64,000 nucleotides of DNA, taken from assembly GCA_902563335.1 (NCBI GenBank), contig CACEWU010000001.1, positions 41,025 to 105,024 of the forward strand, written 5' to 3'. Below are positions 3,120 through 59,979 of this stretch, one piece after another (within the stretch, counting starts at the first letter, position 1; every line of letters starts with the position of its first letter). Made by a program: the position numbers and the translations under genes. Source of the DNA: an uncultured Prochlorococcus sp. (GTDB taxonomy: Bacteria > Cyanobacteriota > Cyanobacteriia > PCC-6307 > Cyanobiaceae). The notes beneath the pieces were generated by a model that was not told the DNA's origin, searched no databases, and was given only the letters and a program-made list of their open reading frames with translations.

Positions 3120-3689
3120 ATGCTTTTTTTTTCATTTGTGGATTTGTGGATTGCGAATGAGCCGTCTCTTCAACAATCGTTGCCAATTTCTAGTAGTCCT
3201 GAAGCTTCTCAAGAACAGCTCGAACCAATAGACTCAATTATAGAAATCAAGCCTTTTGTGCTTGAGGGTTCGGTAGAGAGTTTTGATCCTGAATCACGTG
3301 CAAAAGAACTTGTAAAGAATATTCCTAGGAATTGGTGTGGCACTTTTAAGTCTTTTGAGAAAGATTTAAATATTGATGTAACTTTAAGATTTTTTGAAGT
3401 GAGTGCTACTGGACAAATGGTTTCAATGCAGGGAGAAATGATGCTTGGAGATGTAAAAACTTTGGTCAGTGGAAATTTAAATGCAAAATCAGATCAATTT
3501 GAACTGATACCTTTAGCTGAAAAATTATTGCCAGGATTAGAGCCTGGTGGTTCGTTTATAGGATTACAAGGGGTAAAGGTGTTTGGTTGGAATTCTTCTA
3601 ATTTGGATAATGCAGGAGGTCAGTTAAATCTTAGGGAAAAATGTGCAGATGAGATTTCAGAAGCCCCTGTTGTCAGGTCTATTTGGTGA
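3120..3689 (+). CDS. Conserved cyanobacterial hypothetical protein
   Basis: Intact 189-aa ORF; contains IPRNWCGTFKSFEKDLNIDVTLRFFEVSATGQMVSMQGEMMLGD. Confidence 0.6.
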   Translation: MLFFSFVDLWIANEPSLQQSLPISSSPEASQEQLEPIDSIIEIKPFVLEGSVESFDPESRAKELVKNIPRNWCGTFKSFEKDLNIDVTLRFFEVSATGQMVSMQGEMMLGDVKTLVSGNLNAKSDQFELIPLAEKLLPGLEPGGSFIGLQGVKVFGWNSSNLDNAGGQLNLREKCADEISEAPVVRSIW

Positions 3690-41012: not shown

Positions 41013-41050
41013 AAAGTAAGGATAAATCTAAAAAGATTTATCCTTACTTT
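41013..41050. terminator. Bidirectional intrinsic terminator hairpin between convergent glycosyltransferase genes
   Basis: aaagtaaggataaatct-aaaa-agatttatccttacttt: perfect 17-bp stem, 4-nt loop. Confidence 0.8.
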
Positions 41051-42195
41051 TGAAATAAAATTTCTAATTTTCTAGCTGAAGCTATTACACTAAATTTTTC
41101 TTCAGCAATTTCTTTACCTCTGTCGCCAAATTCTTTTATTAACCTTGGCTTGTCTACTAGACAAGATAATTGCTTTGAAAGGTCATCAGAATTACCTTGT
41201 TGAAATAATAAACCATTTACTCCTTGTTCTACAAGCTCTTTGCTGCCACCAACTCCGCTAGAGATAAGTGCAAGACCACTTGCCATAGCTTCTGCTTGAA
41301 CTATTCCAAATGCTTCTGGGTATATTGATGGAAATACAAACACATGATTTAGTCTGAAAAATCTTGCAAGTTGATTCCTATTTAACTCTCCTGTGAAAGA
41401 AACCGAATGCTTCATGTTATGTGTTGATAAAAAAGCCTCTAGGTCTTTTCTGTAGCCACTTTGAAATTCTGCCCCAGCAATTAATGTTCTTGTTGAAATG
41501 CCTTTATATTTCAATTTTATTATTGCTTCGATCAGTATATGTAATCCTTTTGTTGTCATTAAAAGACCAGCATATGCTATGCAAATTGGGTTATTTATGG
41601 AACCAGTTGGCAATTTAGGAAGTTCGCGGCTTGTTGCTTTTTTACCAAAGAGTTCGACTCTAGCTCCAGGATAAATAACGGGAGAATTTTTTTGAGCAAA
41701 GCCAAGGGAAATCAGTGACTCTTTAACTGCTTTACTTGCAGAAACTACCTTGTAATTTTTTTCTTTTGGTAGATAGATTGGATCAAATGGAGGTGATGTA
41801 AATCCAATATGATGAATTATTGGAAGCCCAGTTTTTGTCAAGATTCCAAGAATTTCGTGCTCAATTAGGTCTAAGTTTCCTATCAGGATTCCATCCCAAT
41901 GATATTTGCCTAGCATATTTTTTAGAATAGTTTGATTGTGTAGATCTATCTTCTTTCTTTCAAATGGATCTAAGATATGACTAACACCTTTTTGAAATGA
42001 GCCTTTCAATTGCAATTGCCTGTGAGTTGTTGGCTCAAATTGGTTAGATTTTTTTTTCAAGTAAGGAGCATCACTACAAACAACTTCCACTGAGTGTCCT
42101 AATTCTCTGAGGCCCCAGGCAAAATCTGCCATAGATCTTCCATATCCACCTAATTCTTGAGGCGGGTACAAATTGGTTATGAGCAGTAGTCTCAT
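41044..42195 (-). CDS. GT4-family glycosyltransferase
   Basis: MRLLLITNLYPPQELGGYGRSMADFAWGLRELGHSVEVVC; VFVFPSIYPEAFGIVQAEAMASGLALISSGVGGSKELV. Confidence 0.9.
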   Translation of the reverse strand: MRLLLITNLYPPQELGGYGRSMADFAWGLRELGHSVEVVCSDAPYLKKKSNQFEPTTHRQLQLKGSFQKGVSHILDPFERKKIDLHNQTILKNMLGKYHWDGILIGNLDLIEHEILGILTKTGLPIIHHIGFTSPPFDPIYLPKEKNYKVVSASKAVKESLISLGFAQKNSPVIYPGARVELFGKKATSRELPKLPTGSINNPICIAYAGLLMTTKGLHILIEAIIKLKYKGISTRTLIAGAEFQSGYRKDLEAFLSTHNMKHSVSFTGELNRNQLARFFRLNHVFVFPSIYPEAFGIVQAEAMASGLALISSGVGGSKELVEQGVNGLLFQQGNSDDLSKQLSCLVDKPRLIKEFGDRGKEIAEEKFSVIASARKLEILFQK

Positions 42196-46403: not shown

Positions 46404-46434
46404 CACACTCCGCCCCCTTGGTGGGTGCGTTGTG
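46404..46434 (+). promoter_or_regulatory. Predicted 5'UTR hairpin upstream of the RTX-like gene
   Basis: caca...cgcCccc-ttggt-gggTgcg...tgtg: nested complementary arms with one mismatch in the inner stem. Confidence 0.45.
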
Positions 46435-46472
46435 ACATAAACCAACCCACCAAATCCAAAAGTCCGCCACCG

Positions 46473-48515
46473 ATGTCTTCGAGTTACAACACAATTCTGG
46501 GTACCGACACTGCGAATACGCTTATCGGATCCAACGGTGCTGATTCCATTGCTGCCCTTTCAGGTGACGACACCGTCGTCGTTCAGGGAGACGATCTCAT
46601 TTATCTCGACGCTGGCAATGACAGCTTGTCGATGAATAGCAACATTACTTCTGGCTCCGTATACGGAGGAGACGGTAATGACACATTCAATCTCACCGCT
46701 ACTGCACACAATTCACTGTTCAGTGGTGACTCAGGTAATGACACCCTGTCATTCAGCGTTGGCCCTCTTACATCAGAGCTCCAAGGTGGTGCCGGTAATG
46801 ACTCATTAGTTATTAACGATGATGTAACTGGAGTCACTATTTCCGGTGGTAACTCTGCTGCAACCTCTAGCGATGGTGCTGACACTATCTCGGTTTCAGG
46901 AACTCTTGCTAGTTCCTTGGTCGAAGGAAATGGTGGTGCTGATACCTTGGTTGTTGGCGGTAAAGCAAGTTCTTCAACAGTTAGGGGTGGCCAAGGTAAT
47001 GACACCCTTTCATTCGGCGCCAGTGTTACAGGGTCAACCATTTATGGAGACCTTGGAGCTGACACCCTCCAGTTAAATACAGGAAATGTAAGAAACAGTC
47101 TTATACAAGGTGGAAGCGATACCGATACTTCAAGCGACGGAAAGGATTTAGTTTCTATCGGAGTTGCTATATCAGCTTCTACAGTTCTTGGTAACGGTGG
47201 CGATGACACCATTAATTTGGCCGGAACTGGCATCCTTGATGGTTCAAGTGTTCATGGTGGTAAAGGAAACGACGTCCTTTCCAAAGGTGCTGGAACTTTA
47301 AGTACTGCTTATCTTGCTGGTGACCTAGGAAACGACACAATTAGTCTTCTTGCAGTTTCTCTTTACGGTTCAACTCTTTACGGAGATAACTCAACAACTT
47401 CAGGTGGTGATGATGTCATCAACCTTGCAGCTGCTGGAACAGGGATCCAGAACACCACAGTTTATGGAGGCTCCGGTAAGGACACTATCGTTGTTAACGA
47501 CAACACTACTGAGGCCAACCTTACTAGCTTCTTCCAAGGAAATGCTGGTAACGACTCACTGAGATTTAGTGGTTCTGCTATCTCCTCTACGGTTCGTGGT
47601 GGTCAAGGTAATGACACTATTGCTCTTAGCTACTCTGGTTCTGGTGGCTCCGTTGCTTCTCAGTTCTATGGTGATAAGGGTGATGACTTCATAACAGTTG
47701 CTGTTGCTTATGGTGCTGGAACTATTTACGGAGACGAGTCAGCAACAGGTGGTAGTGGTCAGGACACCATTTCCGCTGGTAATTTGACCAACAGCGCTGT
47801 TATTTATGCTGGTGGTGGCAACGACACTCTGGATGTTTCCGCATTAACCTCTTCCACTCTTTACGGTGGAGATGGAGCTGACACCATTGGCGTTGCAGGT
47901 GGTGCAGCTGGCCAGATCTACGGTGATGCAGGAAATGACACCCTGAGTATTGGTGCAGGCACTACTACTCTTTACGGTGGTGCAGGTACTGACTCTGTAA
48001 ACGTTGGTACTGGCGCAAGTAACAAGCTTTACGGCGGTGCTGACAACGACACCTTCGATGCAGCTGGCGCAGTAAATACTGCAACTGTTGTTGGTGGAGC
48101 TGGTGCTGACATCTTCACATTCGATGGAGCTGGAGTAACTTCCTCCAAGATCAGTGGTGGTACTGGAAATGATTCCGTTAACTTCGGAGTTCACGTTACC
48201 GTCGCTAGCAGCAATACCACGGTTTACTTTGGTTATGGAGACGGCCAAGACTCAATAGCCTTTGGCGCTCACGCAACACAAGTAACTGCAGGAACTCTGA
48301 TGATTGCAGTTGACAGTCAGTACGGAGCAACTTCCTCTTACGGAATCTCTGGTGCGGCTGGTGCGGCAGACAGAACTGTTACCTTCGGTTCAGGTTCTAA
48401 CCAAGGCAAGATCGCGTTCACTAACTTGTTCTCTGTAACTAGTGGAACATTCTTGAGTGCACAAGGCGTTAGCTTCACAACAGTAAGCACAGCCACTATC
48501 ACCGCTCTTGGTTGA
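46473..48515 (+). CDS. RTX-like Ca2+-binding repeat protein, probable type I secretion substrate / surface protein (start ATG 46473, MSSSYNTILGTDTANTLIG)
   Basis: About 20 GGxGxDT[LI]-type motifs (GGDGNDTF, GDSGNDTL, GGAGNDSL, GGQGNDTL, GDLGADTL, GNGGDDTI); no N-terminal signal peptide; Gly/Asp/Ser/Thr rich. Confidence 0.9.
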   Translation: MSSSYNTILGTDTANTLIGSNGADSIAALSGDDTVVVQGDDLIYLDAGNDSLSMNSNITSGSVYGGDGNDTFNLTATAHNSLFSGDSGNDTLSFSVGPLTSELQGGAGNDSLVINDDVTGVTISGGNSAATSSDGADTISVSGTLASSLVEGNGGADTLVVGGKASSSTVRGGQGNDTLSFGASVTGSTIYGDLGADTLQLNTGNVRNSLIQGGSDTDTSSDGKDLVSIGVAISASTVLGNGGDDTINLAGTGILDGSSVHGGKGNDVLSKGAGTLSTAYLAGDLGNDTISLLAVSLYGSTLYGDNSTTSGGDDVINLAAAGTGIQNTTVYGGSGKDTIVVNDNTTEANLTSFFQGNAGNDSLRFSGSAISSTVRGGQGNDTIALSYSGSGGSVASQFYGDKGDDFITVAVAYGAGTIYGDESATGGSGQDTISAGNLTNSAVIYAGGGNDTLDVSALTSSTLYGGDGADTIGVAGGAAGQIYGDAGNDTLSIGAGTTTLYGGAGTDSVNVGTGASNKLYGGADNDTFDAAGAVNTATVVGGAGADIFTFDGAGVTSSKISGGTGNDSVNFGVHVTVASSNTTVYFGYGDGQDSIAFGAHATQVTAGTLMIAVDSQYGATSSYGISGAAGAADRTVTFGSGSNQGKIAFTNLFSVTSGTFLSAQGVSFTTVSTATITALG

Positions 48516-48572
48516 TTAATCTCTAAATATCAATCTGTAGAAAACTACTAAACTACAGTTGAATAATTAAGC

Positions 48573-48606
48573 GGGGAAGGTCTTAATCAACCTTCCCCAT
48601 TTTTTT
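48573..48606 (+). terminator. Rho-independent terminator after the RTX-like gene
   Basis: ggggaagg-tcttaatcaa-ccttcccc followed by atttttt. Confidence 0.9.
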
Positions 48607-48616
48607 GTCAAAAACA

Positions 48617-50746
48617 ATGAAACCAACTTGGCAAAACATATTGCTCCGCAAGACATCTCATGATGTTCTTGTTGATTCAGTAGACTCGACTCAAGGTCTT
48701 GCTCGCATAGCAAGTTTAATTATTCAGGCAGAATGGGCTACGGCTGAGTCCGCATTACTCTCAAGCGTTGATTTCACTGAAAAAGCCAGACTTTCTTTGC
48801 TTGCATTTCTAGATTTACGTATAAGGAATTTTTCTAGACTAAATCGACTGATTCCATATTTAGTTCAGAGGTTTCCTCAGGATCCATTTGTTCGCTCCTT
48901 GTGGGTGAATTGGAATCTTATTTCAGGCAATGAATCTGACTTGCTTAAGCTTCCAGATTCGTTTTGGGCAAAAGAGACTTCTTGTCTACATCTTTGCTTA
49001 TCACATGGCTATTGGTTATTGAAAAAGACTGCTTTTCAAGAGTGCGAGTTCTTAATTGAGACTGTCTTATCTCAGGAATCATTAGATAGAGATTTATTGA
49101 TATCTCAACTCTTTCAGAGGAAGAGAGAACCACATAAGGCATTAGAAAAGTTGATGCCTTGGTGTAATTATGCCTTTGGCCGGCCTGATTTTTGGCGCAC
49201 TTTTCTTCAGCTTCATTTTGAATTGAGGAAAGGTGATCATCTTGCAACTTTTCTCAGGCAAGGACTAGGAGAGGTTCCTCGAAAGGAGGAAATCCTTGAT
49301 CTTTTTGCTTGGGGCTGTGTTTTGCAGAGAAAGCCTGCCGAAGCTCGTAGGAATCTTTTTGTGCAGAGGCTATTGGGTTGGAATTTGTTTGAACCCACGG
49401 CTGTTGCTCATCTTTTTACTTGCTATGAAAACTTAGGTGAAACTGAAAATGTACAGTATATGCATTCATCTATATCTTCTGAACCGACTAAATTTCTTGA
49501 TGTTTTTGCAAGTTTAATCCTTCATCTCACAAGCATTGAACATCAATCAATTAGTTCAACTAGCAAGACGTTAATTGATGTTTTAGAGCGTAATCCAGGC
49601 TATAAAAAACATCTCCCTGTTAAACCATTAACTCCAGCATCTAAGAAAAAAAATGATCGATTACGCATTGCTTGGGTTACTGGGGATTGTAGATATCATC
49701 CAGTATCTAGGTTTTTACTTGGCTTTTTGAATTCTTTATCAGGAAATTTCTCTCATGATCATCTTTTAGTTAGTACAACTCCTTTTGATGATCAATTCCC
49801 TGAGTTTTTTCAGAAAATTGATGATTTACAAGTTATTGATTTTTCAGGCAATATGGCTCATCACATGACTAATGCTATTCGTGATTTAAGTCCAGATATT
49901 GCTATTGATCTTTCTGGCTGGACACATTCAAATATTGCAGCTTCTTTCATGGCAAGGGTGGCACCAATCCAGGTTAACTATTTAGGTTATTTCGGCTCTA
50001 CTGGTATCCCTGCTATGGATTGGTGGTTAGGCGATTCAAATTTGTTTCCTTCAAAAATGTCTCAGTGGCATAGTGAAAAAATATATCGCTTATCCCGATG
50101 TTTTCTTGCTTGGGATCCGCACCCTGAGTTACCTGAGGCAAACATTGATGTTCAAGAATCACCGCAAGGCCCTGTACGTTTTGGTTGCTTTAATCATCTG
50201 AGAAAACTTTCAGATTTTACTTTAAGGACTTGGGCTTCGATATTAGAAAAAGTGCCTAACTCACGACTAGTGTTGAAGGCTGCTGGTCTTGAGGATATGG
50301 AGGCTATTGCATTATTGAAGAGACGTCTAATGAGAGCAGGTTTTGACCTTGAGAGGATAGATTTTTTATCATTTGCTTCTTCAGTTTCAGAACATTTGTC
50401 TCAATATAGGTTTCTAGATATAGCATTAGATCCTTTCCCTAATGGTGGATGTACTACTACAGCTGAAGCTTTATGGATGGGAGTACCTGTAATAACTATG
50501 AAAGGAAAAAGTTACGTTAGTAGAATGAGTACTGCTGTCCTGAAAGGAGTTAATATGGATTCATGGATAGCTAATGATTACTCTTCTTATGAAGATTTAG
50601 CAGTTTTACATTCAAGTAACCTCTCTACTCTACGCCAGACTAGAGAGAATTGGCGATTGAAATTAAAGAAATCGGAACTAGGGGATTCAAAAGGATTAAT
50701 GAGGGAACTAGAAGAAGCTTTTAGTGTTATGAGTTCTCCGACCTAG
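48617..50746 (+). CDS. SPINDLY/OGT-like (GT41) glycosyltransferase (start ATG 48617)
   Basis: RLRIAWVTGDCRYHPVSRFLLGFL; IDLSGWTHSNIAASFMARVAPIQVNYLGYFGSTG; FGCFNHLRKLSDFTLRTWASIL; DPFPNGGCTTTAEALWMGVPVITMKG. Confidence 0.88.
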   Translation: MKPTWQNILLRKTSHDVLVDSVDSTQGLARIASLIIQAEWATAESALLSSVDFTEKARLSLLAFLDLRIRNFSRLNRLIPYLVQRFPQDPFVRSLWVNWNLISGNESDLLKLPDSFWAKETSCLHLCLSHGYWLLKKTAFQECEFLIETVLSQESLDRDLLISQLFQRKREPHKALEKLMPWCNYAFGRPDFWRTFLQLHFELRKGDHLATFLRQGLGEVPRKEEILDLFAWGCVLQRKPAEARRNLFVQRLLGWNLFEPTAVAHLFTCYENLGETENVQYMHSSISSEPTKFLDVFASLILHLTSIEHQSISSTSKTLIDVLERNPGYKKHLPVKPLTPASKKKNDRLRIAWVTGDCRYHPVSRFLLGFLNSLSGNFSHDHLLVSTTPFDDQFPEFFQKIDDLQVIDFSGNMAHHMTNAIRDLSPDIAIDLSGWTHSNIAASFMARVAPIQVNYLGYFGSTGIPAMDWWLGDSNLFPSKMSQWHSEKIYRLSRCFLAWDPHPELPEANIDVQESPQGPVRFGCFNHLRKLSDFTLRTWASILEKVPNSRLVLKAAGLEDMEAIALLKRRLMRAGFDLERIDFLSFASSVSEHLSQYRFLDIALDPFPNGGCTTTAEALWMGVPVITMKGKSYVSRMSTAVLKGVNMDSWIANDYSSYEDLAVLHSSNLSTLRQTRENWRLKLKKSELGDSKGLMRELEEAFSVMSSPT

Positions 50747-51930
50747 GAGGGTAATAGTTCATTTATTTTTATTTTGCAGTAGGTTTCTATCTGTTCAGCA
50801 ACTCGTTGACCATTTGCGAGTGGAGATCTGTTTATTTTTTCTCTTAGTATTTTTCTAGAGTGCACATCTCTTTGCCCTTGAGATGCAAGCTTTTTAGCAA
50901 TTAATTGGTATTCCAAGCAATCATGAGCGATCCAACTGTCGCATTTAGCACTTCTGAGCAAACTAGTACTTAACCTCCCTACCATTCCTTCCCCAGCAAG
51001 TGCTATTACAGGCACTCCCATCCATAAAGCTTCAGCTGTTGTTGTTGCACCTCCATAGGGGATTGGATCTAACGCAATGTCAATCCACTTATAAAGCGTA
51101 AGGTGCGATTCAGTTCCTTCAACCCAATCGAGCATTATTAAGCGATTGTTCTCTAATCCATTTTTTTGAAATAGTTCTCGAATGCGATCCTTTTCTTCTT
51201 TTTCAACAAAGGTAATACTTTTAATTACTAATTCACTATTAGGTATGCCTTTTAAAACTTGACAGAAAAGATTAATAGCCTGAGTTCCTAACTTTCTACT
51301 ATTATTAAAACTGCCAAATCTTACATTTTCTCCATCTTCTCTCTCTAAGGGTGGTAACTTTATTGGCTTATAGGCCATATAGCCACCTTCAATATGTAGC
51401 AAATTCTGACGTCTGTCTATTTTATTTAAATTACCAAATAATTCTTTATCGCCAATCCAGCCATCAATGCATGAAAGGTAAGTCGGGGCAAAATAACCTA
51501 AGTAACTAAGTTGAACTGGTGCTGGCTTATAAATTAGTGCTTTTATCCGACTAAATCCTGTATATCCTCCTAACTCTATTATAACGTCTATATTTAGATC
51601 AGAAATGATTCGCGCAACTTCTATATCATTTGCTCCAGTTAAATCTATCCACTGTGAGCACTCTGCTTTTACTAAGTTTGTGACCTTATCTTGATTGGGA
51701 CCACAATGCAAACCGATTATTTCAAAATTTTTTTCGTTATGACTTTTTAAGATTGGTAGAAGGAAGCGAGAAACTGGATGATTACAGAAGTCTGATGATA
51801 TGTATCCAATCTTTAATCGTCTATCTACCAAAGGTTCATGAATACAATCAGCCCACATGTTTTTCATTCCTCGGATGGATACTTTCTCCTCCCATTTTTT
51901 TTGCGACCTTAGCAAGTTCCTTTGGATCAA
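50743..51930 (-). CDS. SPINDLY/OGT-like (GT41) catalytic region, downstream half of a frame-split gene
   Basis: RLKIGYISSDFCNHPVSRFLLPIL; PAPVQLSYLGYFAPTYLSCIDGWIGD; RFGSFNNSRKLGTQAINLFCQVL; DPIPYGGATTTAEALWMGVPVIALAGE. Confidence 0.85.
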   Translation of the reverse strand: MIQRNLLRSQKKWEEKVSIRGMKNMWADCIHEPLVDRRLKIGYISSDFCNHPVSRFLLPILKSHNEKNFEIIGLHCGPNQDKVTNLVKAECSQWIDLTGANDIEVARIISDLNIDVIIELGGYTGFSRIKALIYKPAPVQLSYLGYFAPTYLSCIDGWIGDKELFGNLNKIDRRQNLLHIEGGYMAYKPIKLPPLEREDGENVRFGSFNNSRKLGTQAINLFCQVLKGIPNSELVIKSITFVEKEEKDRIRELFQKNGLENNRLIMLDWVEGTESHLTLYKWIDIALDPIPYGGATTTAEALWMGVPVIALAGEGMVGRLSTSLLRSAKCDSWIAHDCLEYQLIAKKLASQGQRDVHSRKILREKINRSPLANGQRVAEQIETYCKIKINELLPS

Positions 51931-52894
51931 TTAAGCTTGTTGCTGAACCAATGAACTGTAGATTAAATAATTGAACGTCATTAAATATATCCCCATTTTT
52001 TAGATGACGTTTTAAAATAGAAACAGATTTTTCTGGGTGACCAGTTTCAGCAAAATTTTGTGCAAGTGCTTCTTCTAAAGTTGTATTGTTTGGGCAGTAT
52101 TTGAGTCCATTTTTTAAAGTTCTTTGGCAAGCAATATTGTGTTTGAGAGCTTTCTGACAAGCTGCTAAATTTATCCAGTTGCTTGCTATTTGAGTGGTTT
52201 GCTTTGAAAGTGGTTCTAGTATTTCAATTGCTTCATCAATGTGTTGACGCTTCATGAGTATTGCTGCCCATGCTCCTTGAATGTGCTTTGCTTGCTTGAG
52301 GCTGTTCGAGAGTGATTGATACAGCTCTTCAGCTTTTGTGAGCTCATTTAAATCTTTTAGAAGGGTCAATCTGTTTGCAATAAGACTTGGATGTTGAGGT
52401 AAAGACTTGCTGCCATTCTCGAATGCTTGGAGTGCTTTTTCTGGCTCATTTTTTTTCCAGTAGATGACACCTAGCTCTAGCCAAGCAAGTCCTTCATTTG
52501 GATTATTCTGGCAGAACCTTTCTAGTAATAAACAAGATTTATTGGTATGATTATTACTTACAAAGATTTTTGATAATTTGAGTACAGGCGAGAAATTTGC
52601 CGGGTGTTCTAAGGTGGCCTTATTTAGCAACTCTATTGCTAGCCTTTGATTTCCAACTTTTAGATATGCATTAGCAGCATTAGAAAGTAGCTGTAAATTG
52701 TTTGGCCATTTCTGAAGATACTTGTTGTAGAGATTAATTGCTTCCTTTAGTTTTTGTTGTTGGCTCAGGAGTGCACCAAGATTCCCTACGTCTTCTGGTA
52801 TACACTTTTGATCAAGCAAAGCTTTATATAGGCTTTCTGCCTTTTGAAGTTCACCACAGGCGTGTGCTTTGTGTGCCCTTTGACGTAAGGTCAT
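51848..52894 (-). CDS. TPR region, upstream half of the frame-split GT41 gene
   Basis: MTLRQRAHKAHACGELQKAESLYKALLDQ..., repeated TPR units; overlaps the GT41 ORF in another frame at an A8 tract. Confidence 0.8.
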   Translation of the reverse strand: MTLRQRAHKAHACGELQKAESLYKALLDQKCIPEDVGNLGALLSQQQKLKEAINLYNKYLQKWPNNLQLLSNAANAYLKVGNQRLAIELLNKATLEHPANFSPVLKLSKIFVSNNHTNKSCLLLERFCQNNPNEGLAWLELGVIYWKKNEPEKALQAFENGSKSLPQHPSLIANRLTLLKDLNELTKAEELYQSLSNSLKQAKHIQGAWAAILMKRQHIDEAIEILEPLSKQTTQIASNWINLAACQKALKHNIACQRTLKNGLKYCPNNTTLEEALAQNFAETGHPEKSVSILKRHLKNGDIFNDVQLFNLQFIGSATSLIDPKELAKVAKKMGGESIHPRNEKHVG

Positions 52895-52928
52895 TCCAAT
52901 GACATCGCTGAGCTCCAGCTAAGGCCTG

Positions 52929-54689
52929 ATGCCCATACTTTCAGAATACAGGCAAGTAAAGGACTGGGCTAGTTTTTTAGAGTACGTGGTTACTGGCCCC
53001 CTTGAGAGGCTTCAGGAATTCGAGGAACATGCACGTCAGCAATTGGCTGTTTCAGGAGATCATGGTTGGGTTATTCCAATAGGCTTTTCTTTGTGGAGAG
53101 TCGAAAAGTATGTTGATGCATTAGATATCCTTGAAGTTGGAAATTCTCTGTCCAATTCAAATAGTCAATATAATGTTGTTAAAGGTATGGTTGCTAGGCG
53201 CATTCCTGGCAAAGAATCAGTTGCCAAAAGAGCATATTGTCATGCCTTAAAGCTTGAGCCAATGCGAGCGGATGTTTATTATAATCTTGCTAATCTTCTT
53301 CGTACAGATAACCCATCAATATCAGAGAAAGCCTATTTGCTAAGCTTAAAACTCGACCCAAATGCTCACCTTACTTGGCATAACTTAGGTCTTGCCCTTA
53401 ATGAGCAAGATAAACATGTGGAAGCACTCAGAGCATTTCGAAAAGGAATAGTCCTTAATCCTGAATACCCAGATGGCTGGTGTAATGCAGGGTTGGCATT
53501 GTTTGGTATGGATGATTATGCAACTGCTATTCGTTATTTTCATTACACAATAAATTTAGATGATAAAAATGAGGCTGGGCATGTGAATTTAGGTTATGCA
53601 TTGATGAATGAAAATCGTCCTTTGGAGGCTTTAGAGTGTCTGAAGCGTGGGGTGCAAATAAGTTCTGGTTCAGTAAATGCTATTTGGAATCTTTCTCTTA
53701 TACACCTCATGCTTGGTAACTATAAAGAAGGATGGGATCTTTATGAAGCTCGTTTTAAAACAGAACAATTTAAAAGCACTGTATATCCAACTACTGGTAC
53801 AAAAATAGAAAAGATGTCTCAGTTACCCTCAAAAGGAGAACCTCCAGTTGTTGTATGGAGTGAGCAGGGCATGGGGGATGCAATACAGTTTTGTCGTTAT
53901 CTCTATCTTTTGGAGGAGAAAGGAGTTCCATTTGTATTTAGCACACGTGAAATGCTGTTTTCACTTATGAAAGATTGGCTTCCTTATTCGCAGCGAGTGC
54001 TACTTGAAAAGACTTGGGATCGTAATGAAGACAAGAGACCTCATCTAGCTTTGATGAGCTTGCCTAGGATTTTTGATACAGATGTGCATACAGTACCCAA
54101 TGCTTATCCATACTTGACTGCTTCCAATGAAACGCCTAGTGAGTTCTTAATTGATAAGGCTCCTGGAGGGGTCAATGTGGGTTTGGTATGGGCATCTAAT
54201 CCTGACAACAAGGCTATGTATCGCCATAAAACGATCCCACTAGATTTACTTTTTTCTGATTTGGAAGAATTAATAGCTCTTGATTTAATTCAGCTACATT
54301 CTCTTCAGGTAGGTAAAGATGCAGAACAATTGGATAAATATAAAAAACATTGTGGTTTGCATGATTGGAATGGTCGATTAAATGATTTTTCAGATACTGC
54401 CTATGTCATCAGTCAACTTGATCTAGTTATTAGTGTAGATACTGCTGTTGCTCATTTGTCAGGTGCTCTTGGGAAGCCTACGTGGTTGCTATTACCTGCA
54501 AATGCAGATTTTCGCTGGTTATTGGATTGCTCTGACTCCCCTTGGTACCCAACCATGCGAATTTTTCGTCAGCCAGGACGTGGAGACTGGCAATCGGTTG
54601 CTAACGAGATCATTGAACAATTGAAAATTGTTTTTTCTCTTGATACAAGTGCACTTGCCAGTTCGAAGTTCTCGAGATCAAATACCTAA
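52929..54689 (+). CDS. TPR protein with GT9-like C-terminal domain
   Basis: TPRs (ADVYYNLANLLRTDNPSISEKAYLLSLKLDPNAHLTWHNLGLALNEQDKHVEALRAF); C-term SDTAYVISQLDLVISVDTAVAHLSGALGKPTWLLL. Confidence 0.82.
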   Translation: MPILSEYRQVKDWASFLEYVVTGPLERLQEFEEHARQQLAVSGDHGWVIPIGFSLWRVEKYVDALDILEVGNSLSNSNSQYNVVKGMVARRIPGKESVAKRAYCHALKLEPMRADVYYNLANLLRTDNPSISEKAYLLSLKLDPNAHLTWHNLGLALNEQDKHVEALRAFRKGIVLNPEYPDGWCNAGLALFGMDDYATAIRYFHYTINLDDKNEAGHVNLGYALMNENRPLEALECLKRGVQISSGSVNAIWNLSLIHLMLGNYKEGWDLYEARFKTEQFKSTVYPTTGTKIEKMSQLPSKGEPPVVVWSEQGMGDAIQFCRYLYLLEEKGVPFVFSTREMLFSLMKDWLPYSQRVLLEKTWDRNEDKRPHLALMSLPRIFDTDVHTVPNAYPYLTASNETPSEFLIDKAPGGVNVGLVWASNPDNKAMYRHKTIPLDLLFSDLEELIALDLIQLHSLQVGKDAEQLDKYKKHCGLHDWNGRLNDFSDTAYVISQLDLVISVDTAVAHLSGALGKPTWLLLPANADFRWLLDCSDSPWYPTMRIFRQPGRGDWQSVANEIIEQLKIVFSLDTSALASSKFSRSNT

Positions 54690-54690
54690 T

Positions 54691-55425
54691 ATGCATTTCC
54701 CGATAAGTCAGGAAAAAGTTGTAGAGCTTGTTAGCCGAATGGAACTAACTGCTCAAGTTATGCAGCGATGCATTGAGGAGGAGATTATCGAATTAGTCAA
54801 TCTTTCAGATGAATGGCACCAGAACGCTTTAGAAGAGTTTTTAACGGCAAAGAAACTTTCTCAGGATGATTTGTCAGTTTGGTTAGATAAGAGAGGTTGG
54901 AGATCAGCGGATCTGGATATACATTTAGCGAAGCCTGAAGCACTTTTTCGTTTTGCGAAGCAACGTTTCGGGCCTGGCTTGGAGGAACGTTATTTGGCTA
55001 GTGCTTCAGATCTTGATAATGTGATTTATTCACTTTTAAGAGTTAAGGATGCTCTTTTGGCTAGGGAGTTGTGGTTGAGACTATGTGAAGGTGAGATTAG
55101 TTTTGTTAATGCTGCTGCCAAGTATGGTGAAGGGCCTGAAGCAAAGCGCAAAGGGTTGATTGGTCCTATTCCTATAGGGTCTATACAACCACCAAAGATT
55201 CGGAAGTCCTTAAGGGAGCTTAGTCCAGGTGAATTTACCTCTCCCAAGCAACTTGGTGAATGGAATCTTTTATTGCGATTGGAGCAGCTAAGTCCTTCCT
55301 CTTTTGATGAAACTATGCAGAGAAAACTTTTACTTGACCAATTACAGAGCTTTCTTAGTGAGCGCGCACAAGCTTTGCTTGAAGATCAGCCAGTAGACGA
55401 ACTTCATTACGACGCTGAATCATGA
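54691..55425 (+). CDS. PpiC/parvulin-like peptidyl-prolyl isomerase (start ATG 54691)
   Basis: LCEGEISFVNAAAKYGEGPEAKRKGLIGPIPIGSIQPPKIRKSLRELSPGEFTSPKQLGEWNLLLRLEQL matches parvulin pattern. Confidence 0.8.
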   Translation: MHFPISQEKVVELVSRMELTAQVMQRCIEEEIIELVNLSDEWHQNALEEFLTAKKLSQDDLSVWLDKRGWRSADLDIHLAKPEALFRFAKQRFGPGLEERYLASASDLDNVIYSLLRVKDALLARELWLRLCEGEISFVNAAAKYGEGPEAKRKGLIGPIPIGSIQPPKIRKSLRELSPGEFTSPKQLGEWNLLLRLEQLSPSSFDETMQRKLLLDQLQSFLSERAQALLEDQPVDELHYDAES

Positions 55426-58400
55426 GCAGCAAGCCAATATCCACTGAATTATTGGCAAGGTTTGAAGCTTTTAGTTCGCTTGAGCCGAATCATTTGGAAT
55501 GGCTTTCCAATCGGGCGGTCCCTTTACGGGCACGTATTGGTCAAGACATCCTCTTAGCTAATCGCTTGCCAGAGCATTGTTATTGCATTCTTGAAGGCCG
55601 TGGAAGGGTTCTGCATGAAGATCCTGGACTGCGCAGGCCAGTCACCATTGCATTGAGTAAGCCTGGCGATTTAGTTGGGTGGGTTGGGTTGAGAAGGCGT
55701 TCTCCTTGTGAATGGATCACATGTTCGGACCCGATGAAGCTTATTGGAATAAGTGCAGAAGATTTCTATTGGCTTGAAGAGAATTCCCAAGCTTTTGCGA
55801 ATTGGCTTTCAACAAAGAATTCGCCAGCTGAATTTATGGATGCTTTGAGGTCAGCTTTACGTAGAAGATCAATGGCTGATCCTCCAGAACGTGATGTTTT
55901 GCGTAGGCTTTTACCAGGGATGAAGGTTATTACATATAACTCAGGAGATTCTTTGCCTAATGATGATTCTATTTGGATTTGGAATGGTCTACCAACCTCT
56001 GAGAGTGAACTTCCCATAGAAATTGGTCAGTTTGTTGATTTTGAATTACTTGAAAAATTGCCTGATAAGAGTTCTGTACGCTTATTAAAAGTAAATCATG
56101 AACTTTGGGAAGAGTTGCTTGAGTCACCTGACGAAGTTGCTCCTGTTGAATTTATACCTCCTAAAATAAATGAAGGTACAGCTGAAGATCGCTATTCTGA
56201 TTTATTTGTTTCTGACCCTCAAGGACAACGTAATGATGGAGATTTAACAGCAAATGATGCTGAAGGTATATCGAACCTTTCTTCAACATCAAAGGTTCCA
56301 GTTTCAACAGGTGTGGGCTCATTAGGACAGGTGATGTCTTGTTTAGAGATGTTATCTACTTACTATAGAATTCCTTTTCGCTCTGATATTATTGAACGCA
56401 TTGCACGTGAACAATTACGTGATAAGTCCCCTAGTCTTCAATTAGTTGGTAATATCTCTACAATACTTGGATTTACAGGAGCATTTACTCCTGTAGCAGA
56501 GGATCAGCTGCATAGGGTTCCTTTTCCATGTATTGCTTTGATTGCTAATCAACCCTCTGTAATTTATGAAATTAGGAAAGGTGAAGTTAAAGCAGTAGTG
56601 CCAGAATATGGAAAGGTCACTTTATCAATTAAGGAGTTGACTCAAGGGGAAGGAGGTGCATCAATTTTAACATTATCTCCTGGACGTGATGCTCAGCGAA
56701 AGAAGTTAAATTTCAAATGGTTTTTGCCTCAATTAAATAAATATCGCAGAAGTTTGATTGAAGTATTTATAGCTTCATTGGTTTTGCAATTGACTAATCT
56801 TGCCACCCCATTAGTTTTTCAGCAAATATTTGACAAGGTTATTGGTCAACAAAATTTAGATACTCTTTATACATTGGGACTCGTATTATTAGCCATCAGC
56901 ATGTTTCAGGGGCTGTTAGGTGCTGTCAGAAGTTATCTTTTTACAGATACCACCAATCGAATTGATATTGCACTTGGAGGAGAAGTCATTCAACATCTAT
57001 TAAGGCTGCCTCTAAGTTATTTTGATAGAAGACCTGTTGGTGAATTACAAACACGAATCGCTGAGCTTGGAAACATTCGTGGTTTCCTGACTGGGAATGC
57101 AATTACCTTAGTCCTAGATGTTGTTTTTTCGGTCATATATGTGGCGGTTATGTTAAGTTATAGTGGCGTTTTGACTGCTGTTTCCTTAGCGGTTGTTCCA
57201 CTTTTCTTGGGCTTGACAATCATTGCTTCACCTTTAATTAGAGGACAATTGCGCAAGGCTGCTGAAAAGAATGCTAGGACCCAGGCTTTATTAGTAGAAG
57301 CACTCAGTGGTGTTCAAACTATTAAAGCTCAAAATGCAGAGAATTCTGTTCGATGGAACTGGCAACAACGTTATTCTGCTTTTATGAGTGAGAGTTTTCG
57401 AACACTTCTTATAGGAATATCTGCAGGTACGGTTAGCAACTTTCTTAATCAACTTACTGGATTACTAACTCTTTGGGTTGGTGCATATTTAGTTATTAAG
57501 GGTGATCTTACAATTGGTCAACTTATCGCCTTTAGAATTATCTCCGGCTATGTTGTTGGTCCATTACTTAACTTAGCTACTAGTTGGCAAAGTTTTCAAG
57601 GCGTTGCTCTTTCTATGGAACGTCTTAGTGATGTTGTTGATGCAGTCGATGAATCAGGTGGAGAATTAACTGATCAGTTGCCTTTGCCTCCAATTGATGG
57701 TGAGGTTGATTTCCAAAATGTTGATTTCAGTTTTAATGAAGGAACCAAAGTTGTTTCTAATGTTAGTTTTAAAATCCCTCCTGGTTCCTTTATAGGAATT
57801 GTTGGAAGAAGTGGCAGTGGAAAAAGTACTATTATGAAATTATTGCCACGTTTATATGAGCCTGAAAAAGGTCGAATTCTTATTGATGGATATGATATAG
57901 CTAAGCTACAACTGGCTTCAGTACGTAGACAAATAGGAATTGTTCCACAAGATAGTTTGCTTTTTGATGGCACTATTAGAGAAAATATATCCCTAACAGT
58001 TCCAGAAGCAACTAGTGAGGAGATTGCTGAAGCTGCACGAATTGCTGTTGCTCATGATTTCATCATGGAATTACCAGAAGGTTATGCAACACGTGTTGGA
58101 GAAAGGGGGAGTGGTCTATCTGGCGGCCAGCGACAGCGTATTGCAATCGCAAGGGCTGCCTTGCAAAAACCCTCTCTATTGATTCTTGATGAAGCGACAA
58201 GTGCACTTGATTACATTACAGAAAGGCAGGTTTGTTTAAACCTAAAGAAGGTTTTTGCGGGCACTACGGTTTTCTTTATCACTCATCGGTTAAGTACTAT
58301 TCGATCTTCTGATGAAATTCTGCTGATGGAGACAGGGAATTTAGTTGAGCAAGGGTCTCATGCTGAACTAATGGAATTAAAGGGTCGTTACTATGCCCTT

Positions 58401-58430
58401 TATTCGCAGCAGGAGGCAGACATTGACTGA
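55422..58430 (+). CDS. Type I secretion ABC transporter: cNMP-binding-like, degenerate C39-like, TM and ATPase domains
   Basis: Crp-like fold at N-terminus (RIGQDILLANRLPEHCYCILEGRGRVLHED...KPGDLVGWVGL); Walker A GRSGSGKST; LSGGQRQRIAIARA; LLILDEATSALD. ATGA overlap with preceding gene. Confidence 0.93.
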   Translation: MSSKPISTELLARFEAFSSLEPNHLEWLSNRAVPLRARIGQDILLANRLPEHCYCILEGRGRVLHEDPGLRRPVTIALSKPGDLVGWVGLRRRSPCEWITCSDPMKLIGISAEDFYWLEENSQAFANWLSTKNSPAEFMDALRSALRRRSMADPPERDVLRRLLPGMKVITYNSGDSLPNDDSIWIWNGLPTSESELPIEIGQFVDFELLEKLPDKSSVRLLKVNHELWEELLESPDEVAPVEFIPPKINEGTAEDRYSDLFVSDPQGQRNDGDLTANDAEGISNLSSTSKVPVSTGVGSLGQVMSCLEMLSTYYRIPFRSDIIERIAREQLRDKSPSLQLVGNISTILGFTGAFTPVAEDQLHRVPFPCIALIANQPSVIYEIRKGEVKAVVPEYGKVTLSIKELTQGEGGASILTLSPGRDAQRKKLNFKWFLPQLNKYRRSLIEVFIASLVLQLTNLATPLVFQQIFDKVIGQQNLDTLYTLGLVLLAISMFQGLLGAVRSYLFTDTTNRIDIALGGEVIQHLLRLPLSYFDRRPVGELQTRIAELGNIRGFLTGNAITLVLDVVFSVIYVAVMLSYSGVLTAVSLAVVPLFLGLTIIASPLIRGQLRKAAEKNARTQALLVEALSGVQTIKAQNAENSVRWNWQQRYSAFMSESFRTLLIGISAGTVSNFLNQLTGLLTLWVGAYLVIKGDLTIGQLIAFRIISGYVVGPLLNLATSWQSFQGVALSMERLSDVVDAVDESGGELTDQLPLPPIDGEVDFQNVDFSFNEGTKVVSNVSFKIPPGSFIGIVGRSGSGKSTIMKLLPRLYEPEKGRILIDGYDIAKLQLASVRRQIGIVPQDSLLFDGTIRENISLTVPEATSEEIAEAARIAVAHDFIMELPEGYATRVGERGSGLSGGQRQRIAIARAALQKPSLLILDEATSALDYITERQVCLNLKKVFAGTTVFFITHRLSTIRSSDEILLMETGNLVEQGSHAELMELKGRYYALYSQQEADID

Positions 58431-59979
58431 TAAAACAAAAAAGGAAGTTATTTCTGTCAATGAATCTGTAAGGAAGGATGGTATTTCTGTAGTTAGATTG
58501 ACAAGGAATTTATTCAGAGATAAGCTTTATCCATATATATATAAACTTAAGAACTTATATAAGGATAGTATTAAATTCAAGATTCGTTCGGTAACAAGTC
58601 ATATTAAACAGGAAATAAGTCCTCAAATGAGTAGCTATAAGAATTCAATTAAAGAAAAACTGTATAACCGATTTAAATTAATTAAATCAGTATTTAAAGA
58701 TCGCTTTTTAGATAAAAATATTCCCGATGAGAACCATTCATCAGATTCAAAGGTTCTTCCAAGTCCTTTTAAGGAGTGGAGCGATCATTCTTCTTCGCTT
58801 TCTCAAGGAAGGCATTGGTCTTCCACAATCATTGCATTATGTTCAACAATGTTCGTTGGATCATTGCTTTGGGCATTTACAGCTCGAATAGATCAGACAA
58901 TTACAGTTAGAGGTAGATTGCAACCTTCAGGATCTGTTAGGGAAGTTGAATCACCTAGTGCAGGAGTAGTTAGTAAAGTCTACATAAATGACGGAGATGT
59001 TGTTAAAGCTGGTCAACCATTATTTATAGTTGAAGCCAAAGGACTCTCAAGTCGTCGCTCTGCATTAAATAATACATTAGCAATTTATGATGTTCAAGCA
59101 AACTCTCTGAAGAATATTATTGATGGAGGGGGAGATCCTTCTAAAATCAATGAAATACCTGAATTACCAATTATAAGTGACCCTAGTCTTTCTGCAAAAC
59201 TTATTACTGCCAGACAGCAATCTCAGTTAATTTTATCTCAATTATCTCAGATTTCATATAGAATTGAAAGTAGAGAAAAGACCTTAAAACTGCAGCAGCA
59301 AATTGCTGAGGGCCTGAAGCCTCTCTATGAGGCTGGTGCAATTGCACGTAACCAGTACTTAAATAAGTTGAATCAAGTTCAGGAAGTACGTGCTGATGCT
59401 CAGAGTCTTAAAGAAGAACGAATTCGAATATTAGGACAGGCAGCAAGTCAGCTCAATCAATTAAATACTCAAATGATCCAAATGAGATCTGAATTAGTAA
59501 ATTTACAAGAAACGTTGGATTATCGAACAGTCAAAGCTCCTATAGATGGTAAGATATTTGATGCAAAAGTATCTCCATACTCTGTCGTTAGTGGAGGTTC
59601 CATTGTTCTTAAGATTGTTCCAGATAATCGCTTAGAGGCAACTGTAAAAATAGGTAATAGTGATATTGGTTTTGTTAAAGTTGGTATGCCTGTGAATGTA
59701 TCAGTTGATTCTTTCCCTTCAGGTGAATTCGGATATCTTGAAGGGACTCTCAAGAGCATAGGTTTAGATGCATTGCCACCTTCTCAGTCATCACCTGACT
59801 ATAGTTTTCCAGCTACCGTTACTTTAAAACAACAAGAAGTTGAATCAGGAGGTAAACTTTTAAATCTTCAGAGTGGTATGAGTGTTAATGCAAATATAAA
59901 ATTGAGATCTAGACCAGTAATTACTATATTGACTGATTTGTTTACAAAGCAAATAGAAGGAGTGAGTCGTTTTCGATGA
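58423..59979 (+). CDS. HlyD-family membrane fusion protein (probable TTG start 58423 with AGGAGG 6 nt upstream)
   Basis: Single TM IIALCSTMFVGSLLWAFTARIDQTITVRGRLQPSGSVREVESPSAGVVSKVYINDGDVVKAGQPLFIVEA; C-term VKAPIDGKIF...VSGGSIVLKIVPDNRLEATVKI. Confidence 0.93.
   Translation: MTDKTKKEVISVNESVRKDGISVVRLTRNLFRDKLYPYIYKLKNLYKDSIKFKIRSVTSHIKQEISPQMSSYKNSIKEKLYNRFKLIKSVFKDRFLDKNIPDENHSSDSKVLPSPFKEWSDHSSSLSQGRHWSSTIIALCSTMFVGSLLWAFTARIDQTITVRGRLQPSGSVREVESPSAGVVSKVYINDGDVVKAGQPLFIVEAKGLSSRRSALNNTLAIYDVQANSLKNIIDGGGDPSKINEIPELPIISDPSLSAKLITARQQSQLILSQLSQISYRIESREKTLKLQQQIAEGLKPLYEAGAIARNQYLNKLNQVQEVRADAQSLKEERIRILGQAASQLNQLNTQMIQMRSELVNLQETLDYRTVKAPIDGKIFDAKVSPYSVVSGGSIVLKIVPDNRLEATVKIGNSDIGFVKVGMPVNVSVDSFPSGEFGYLEGTLKSIGLDALPPSQSSPDYSFPATVTLKQQEVESGGKLLNLQSGMSVNANIKLRSRPVITILTDLFTKQIEGVSRFR

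Follow-up and report, generated by a model that had tools for sequence, protein, structure and literature searches.

In pathogens, surface or glycosylation genes are subject to phase variation through homopolymer runs, and the locus described here likewise carries such a run within a glycosyltransferase gene; unlike theirs, the run is short and unconserved, and its length is the assembled tract length of one genome. Proteins of the TPR-GT41 type (PF13844), which include SPINDLY, OGT and the bacterial homologues XcOGT and 5djs, consist of TPR repeats followed by a GT41 domain. The gene analyzed here has the same arrangement but differs in that, through one base and in this assembly only, the two parts lie in two frames.

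Frameshifts rescued at poly-A runs are known from genes of Buchnera and Blochmannia and from an 8A insertion in M.HaeIII (PMC5009743, PMC3812077). They share with the present case a one-base indel, a poly-A run and an otherwise intact gene, whereas the present case is known from sequence alone and the indel itself is doubtful. Single-cell assemblies show isolated one- or two-base indels that break core genes in fragmentary assemblies of low completeness, which is also what is seen here, except that single-cell origin is in our case deduced. Literature searches retrieved no relevant paper on homopolymeric phase variation in cyanobacteria and nothing relevant on GT41 in cyanobacteria.

Structure of the split gene

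The window, i.e., the whole stretch of 64,000 nucleotides that was analyzed, contains on its minus strand two ORFs in different frames, which a previous sequence-only reading had interpreted as the halves of one gene. Their coordinates were confirmed. The TPR half (52894..51848, minus strand) is an ORF of 348 aa with an ATG start and TPR families in Pfam; it aligns with the first ~340 residues of fused orthologues and ends 16 residues past the frame break. The catalytic half (51930..50743, minus strand) is a 395-aa ORF beginning with TTG, which passes the curated Pfam cut-off for PF13844 (Glyco_transf_41) with 140.2 bits (cut-off 25) and 8.6e-41, and its homology to the orthologues begins near residue 11, at a run of eight A. 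Both ORFs overlap by 83 nt around this A8 run, located as previously reported at 51902..51895 (minus strand) and, judged from the sequence, a deletion scan and the orthologue codons, one A longer than an open frame allows. As assembled (GCA AAA AAA ATG GGA), the TPR frame continues to the stop at 51848; with one A fewer (GCA AAA AAA TGG GAG), the halves are joined through KKWEEK...RLKIGY, in agreement with the earlier proposal. The fused protein of ~715 aa is similar in length to the intact convergent GT41 neighbour (48605..50746, plus strand; 713 aa, PF13844), as had also been pointed out. The deletion scan demonstrated that any one-base deletion in the 85-nt stretch 51932..51848 opens the frame, the A8 being the longest run there. 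Except for this one base both halves are intact, and no further decay was seen in the gene.

Orthologues of the TPR-GT41 gene

Orthologues were searched for in 400 genomes of the family using the GT41 half as query, and those also matching the TPR half were kept. This yielded 18 orthologues with 42-66% identity over the GT41 half, every one of them holding both halves in a single open frame. In the alignments the TPR half matches the first part of each orthologue, the match to the GT41 half follows on almost or entirely without a gap, and the three nearest orthologues (L005, L007 and L006) are the same set for either half. In two of the 18 (L007 and L018) a contig end truncates the catalytic domain, but the frame is continuous at the junction. 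The TPR repeats, encoded here in another frame than the GT41 domain, are thus part of one polypeptide in all orthologues. The contig scan gave only two named loci from Prochlorococcus single cells, which both lack the split, one being a full-length single ORF (L035) and the other (L034) staying in one frame up to the contig end. A search of viral contigs for the junction with seven or more A gave no match.

The comparison with orthologues, which the sequence-only reading had suggested, shows the two ORFs to be one gene split by one base, since all 18 counterparts are fused. For the same reason the split is, on this alignment, derived and unique to the present assembly within the sample, and the ancestral state is one gene. 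Directly after the tract, W-E (TGG GAR) is conserved in 18/18 orthologues. The codons preceding it vary, for example GCA CTT AAG TGG GAA, GCA AAA TGC TGG GAA or ACT AAG TCC TGG GAA, and the A8 is found at this position in none of the 18, the longest A run there being A6 (L008). One orthologue (L015) has an A9 a few codons beyond the tract position with the frame unbroken. By this codon comparison the A run exists here only through two AAA codons before TGG in this lineage.

A candidate restart site for the GT41 half is present at 51872..51856 (minus strand), where GAGGA (51872..51868) is followed nine bases later by an in-frame ATG (51858..51856), just ahead of the TPR stop codon (51850..51848). 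Such an arrangement would also be in line with two natural genes whose translation is coupled and whose products, a TPR protein and a GT41 enzyme, are separate. Besides the fusion in 18/18 orthologues, however, it is the GT41 frame whose residues from the tract to this ATG (KKWEEK...) agree with those of the orthologues, and we consider two natural genes extremely improbable.

Frequency and conservation of A runs

In the 819 kb of the genome scanned, 104 A/T runs of 8 and 27 of 9 were counted, and ORFs of 200 aa or longer contain 71 runs with a length of 8 or above. The 64-kb window has five A/T runs of at least 8. A second A8 inside the TPR ORF itself (52456..52449) breaks no frame. An A8 is therefore unremarkable for this genome, and the tract is not beyond chance expectation. 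Two runs of 9 in the window were also inspected: one (3124..3132) lies right at the start codon of the ORF 3120..3689 and the other (42049..42057) near the N-terminus of a group 1 glycosyltransferase (41044..42195), both with no obvious frame break.

The sequence-only reading had offered a slippage or phase-variation switch, or an error, as explanations and had suggested that the tract could toggle an active glycosyltransferase. The one positive indication for phase variation or a programmed slippage switch is that the frame of a glycosyltransferase gene breaks precisely at a homopolymer run. Programmed slippage or frameshifting is expected to leave a conserved slip site and conserved split frames; here the run is conserved in 0/18 orthologues and 0/18 are split, A8 runs are common in intact genes of this genome, and no stimulatory RNA structure was detected around the tract (z = −0.54 versus shuffles). 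The toggle is not supported by these data, and we regard a switch as very unlikely; of the two earlier explanations the error is the supported one, given the frame breaks in essential genes described below. Should the indel nevertheless prove real and variable, it would hint that protein glycosylation is phase-variable in picocyanobacteria. That an A8 both real and variable in the population would act as a slippage on/off switch of a protein O-glycosyltransferase in a free-living picocyanobacterium appears highly doubtful.

Frame breaks elsewhere in the assembly

The assembly totals 1.25 Mb, distributed over 58 contigs of which the smallest slightly exceed 2,000 bp; completeness is 65% and contamination 0.5%. 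For a frame-jump scan, 819 kb of the 1251 kb were compared with the ORFs of a relative on one contig (G057); of these 1,634 ORFs, 775 had a match. Besides the TPR-GT41 gene, five further genes showed one- or two-base frame breaks. The gene for isoleucyl-tRNA synthetase (ileS; contig C7, ~28990, L052) has a one-base break near GGGGAAAC, and that for phosphoribulokinase (prk; C10, 15292-15302, L055) is broken at a run of eleven G. The remaining three breaks, in the genes for dihydrolipoyl dehydrogenase (lpd; C16, ~424, L074) and glucose-1-phosphate adenylyltransferase (glgC; C10, ~105, L055) and in a conserved gene of 121 aa (C14, ~125, L072), lie less than 500 bases from a contig end, whereas the break in the TPR-GT41 gene is deep inside a 105-kb contig. 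The names of the four named genes are those of NCBIfam.

A second intact copy of ileS or prk was not found when searching the whole assembly. A phototroph without isoleucyl-tRNA synthetase or phosphoribulokinase is not viable, and the breaks in both genes are therefore errors; indels like the one in the TPR-GT41 gene thus occur here in single-copy genes that are necessarily intact in the living cell. The G11 run in prk looks like a homopolymer error: three G/C runs of 11 and one of 10 occur in the 819 kb of this genome of 40% G+C, and none of 11 in the relative. The reverse scan, with ORFs of this genome against the relative, gave no frame breaks in 662 genes.

Several other matches of the scan were rejected as false. 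One resulted from the start choice of the query ORF (C12, 19079), three from antisense or overlapping frames (C3, 29332; C2, 87725; C14, plus strand), and one had low identity (C14, 12451). A further candidate (C8, 17735-18079, L053) was rejected as a one-base break and classified as a degenerate pseudogene. It is a membrane-protein gene whose homology is spread over three frames and interrupted by many stops, and its decay is apparently real.

The main alternative to an error is a genuine mutation: the sampled cell would have acquired the extra A recently, leaving its gene broken or leaky. An A8 is a slippage-prone run, and slippage of RNA polymerase would bring some transcripts, though a minority, back into frame. 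A laboratory evolution study measured the bypass of an A inserted into an 8A repeat (PMC3812077), and poly-A slippage corrects the frames of endosymbiont genes, for some of them in 12-50% of transcripts (PMC5009743). Rescue by the ribosome would here take a +1 or −2 frameshift, both less common types at A runs. The gene could also be leaky by restart: with a real extra A, translation starting at the ATG at 51858, which has GAGGA upstream, might produce the GT41 domain as a separate protein. The intactness of both halves apart from one base fits a real mutation as well, though it would have to be very recent because no other decay was seen. With essential genes similarly broken, the indels of this assembly are not to be trusted, and we judge a real mutation unlikely, though less so than the other alternatives.

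Origin of the extra base

The picocyanobacterial single-cell genomes published as one set retained only contigs above 2,000 bp, and the named relatives of our assembly are Prochlorococcus single-cell genomes of that set (PMC6122165). Together with the size of the smallest contigs this indicates that the present assembly is probably a single-cell genome as well. When benchmarked on cultures, the single-cell workflow showed an indel rate of 3.0 per 100 kbp (PMC6122165). At this rate about two indels per 64-kb window and a chance of ~6% for a gene of this length would be expected, both upper estimates because Prochlorococcus single cells had the fewest indels in the benchmark (PMC5519541).

The best explanation, to which we give a probability of roughly three in four, is that the TPR-GT41 gene is an ordinary one into which amplification, sequencing or assembly introduced one base. 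It is likelier than an on/off switch because essential genes are broken likewise and the relatives have the gene whole. According to this explanation, a marine picocyanobacterium would carry an O-GlcNAc/O-fucose-transferase-like gene in which A7 keeps the frame, and the surplus A (A7 to A8) would be a product of single-cell amplification, of sequencing or of assembly. In the cell itself the gene would then most likely be intact and give one protein of ~715 aa, and we infer that the extra base is absent from the cell. Against a technical error, poly-A runs mutate in living cells too, the break is located deep within a contig, and the Prochlorococcus benchmarks were low in indels (PMC5519541). 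Since essential genes carry one-base breaks, it would be unsafe to call split genes switches or pseudogenes from this assembly alone.

Putative function and genomic neighbourhood

Over its residues 33-383 the GT41 half matches the solved structures of SPINDLY, OGT and the bacterial homologues XcOGT and 5djs. In the alignment with SPINDLY two residues of this half, His in the motif HPVS and Lys in NNSRK, have identical counterparts, which we take to be catalytic or donor-binding. The fold is clear from the sequence, which has no bearing on the indel question.

The split gene is situated between the convergent GT41 paralogue, which adjoins the fused gene in most orthologous loci too, and a TPR/GT9-type gene; nearby lie the genes of an RTX-repeat protein and of an ABC/HlyD pair for type I secretion. 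The TPR-GT41 gene may plausibly have a role in glycosylating a secreted or surface protein. The region 46425..59979 of the window, which comprises the RTX-repeat protein, the two GT41 proteins, the TPR/GT9-type protein and, side by side, the type I secretion ABC transporter and HlyD adaptor, may possibly serve to glycosylate and export a secreted protein. The ABC transporter of this region has an N-terminal cNMP-binding-like domain.
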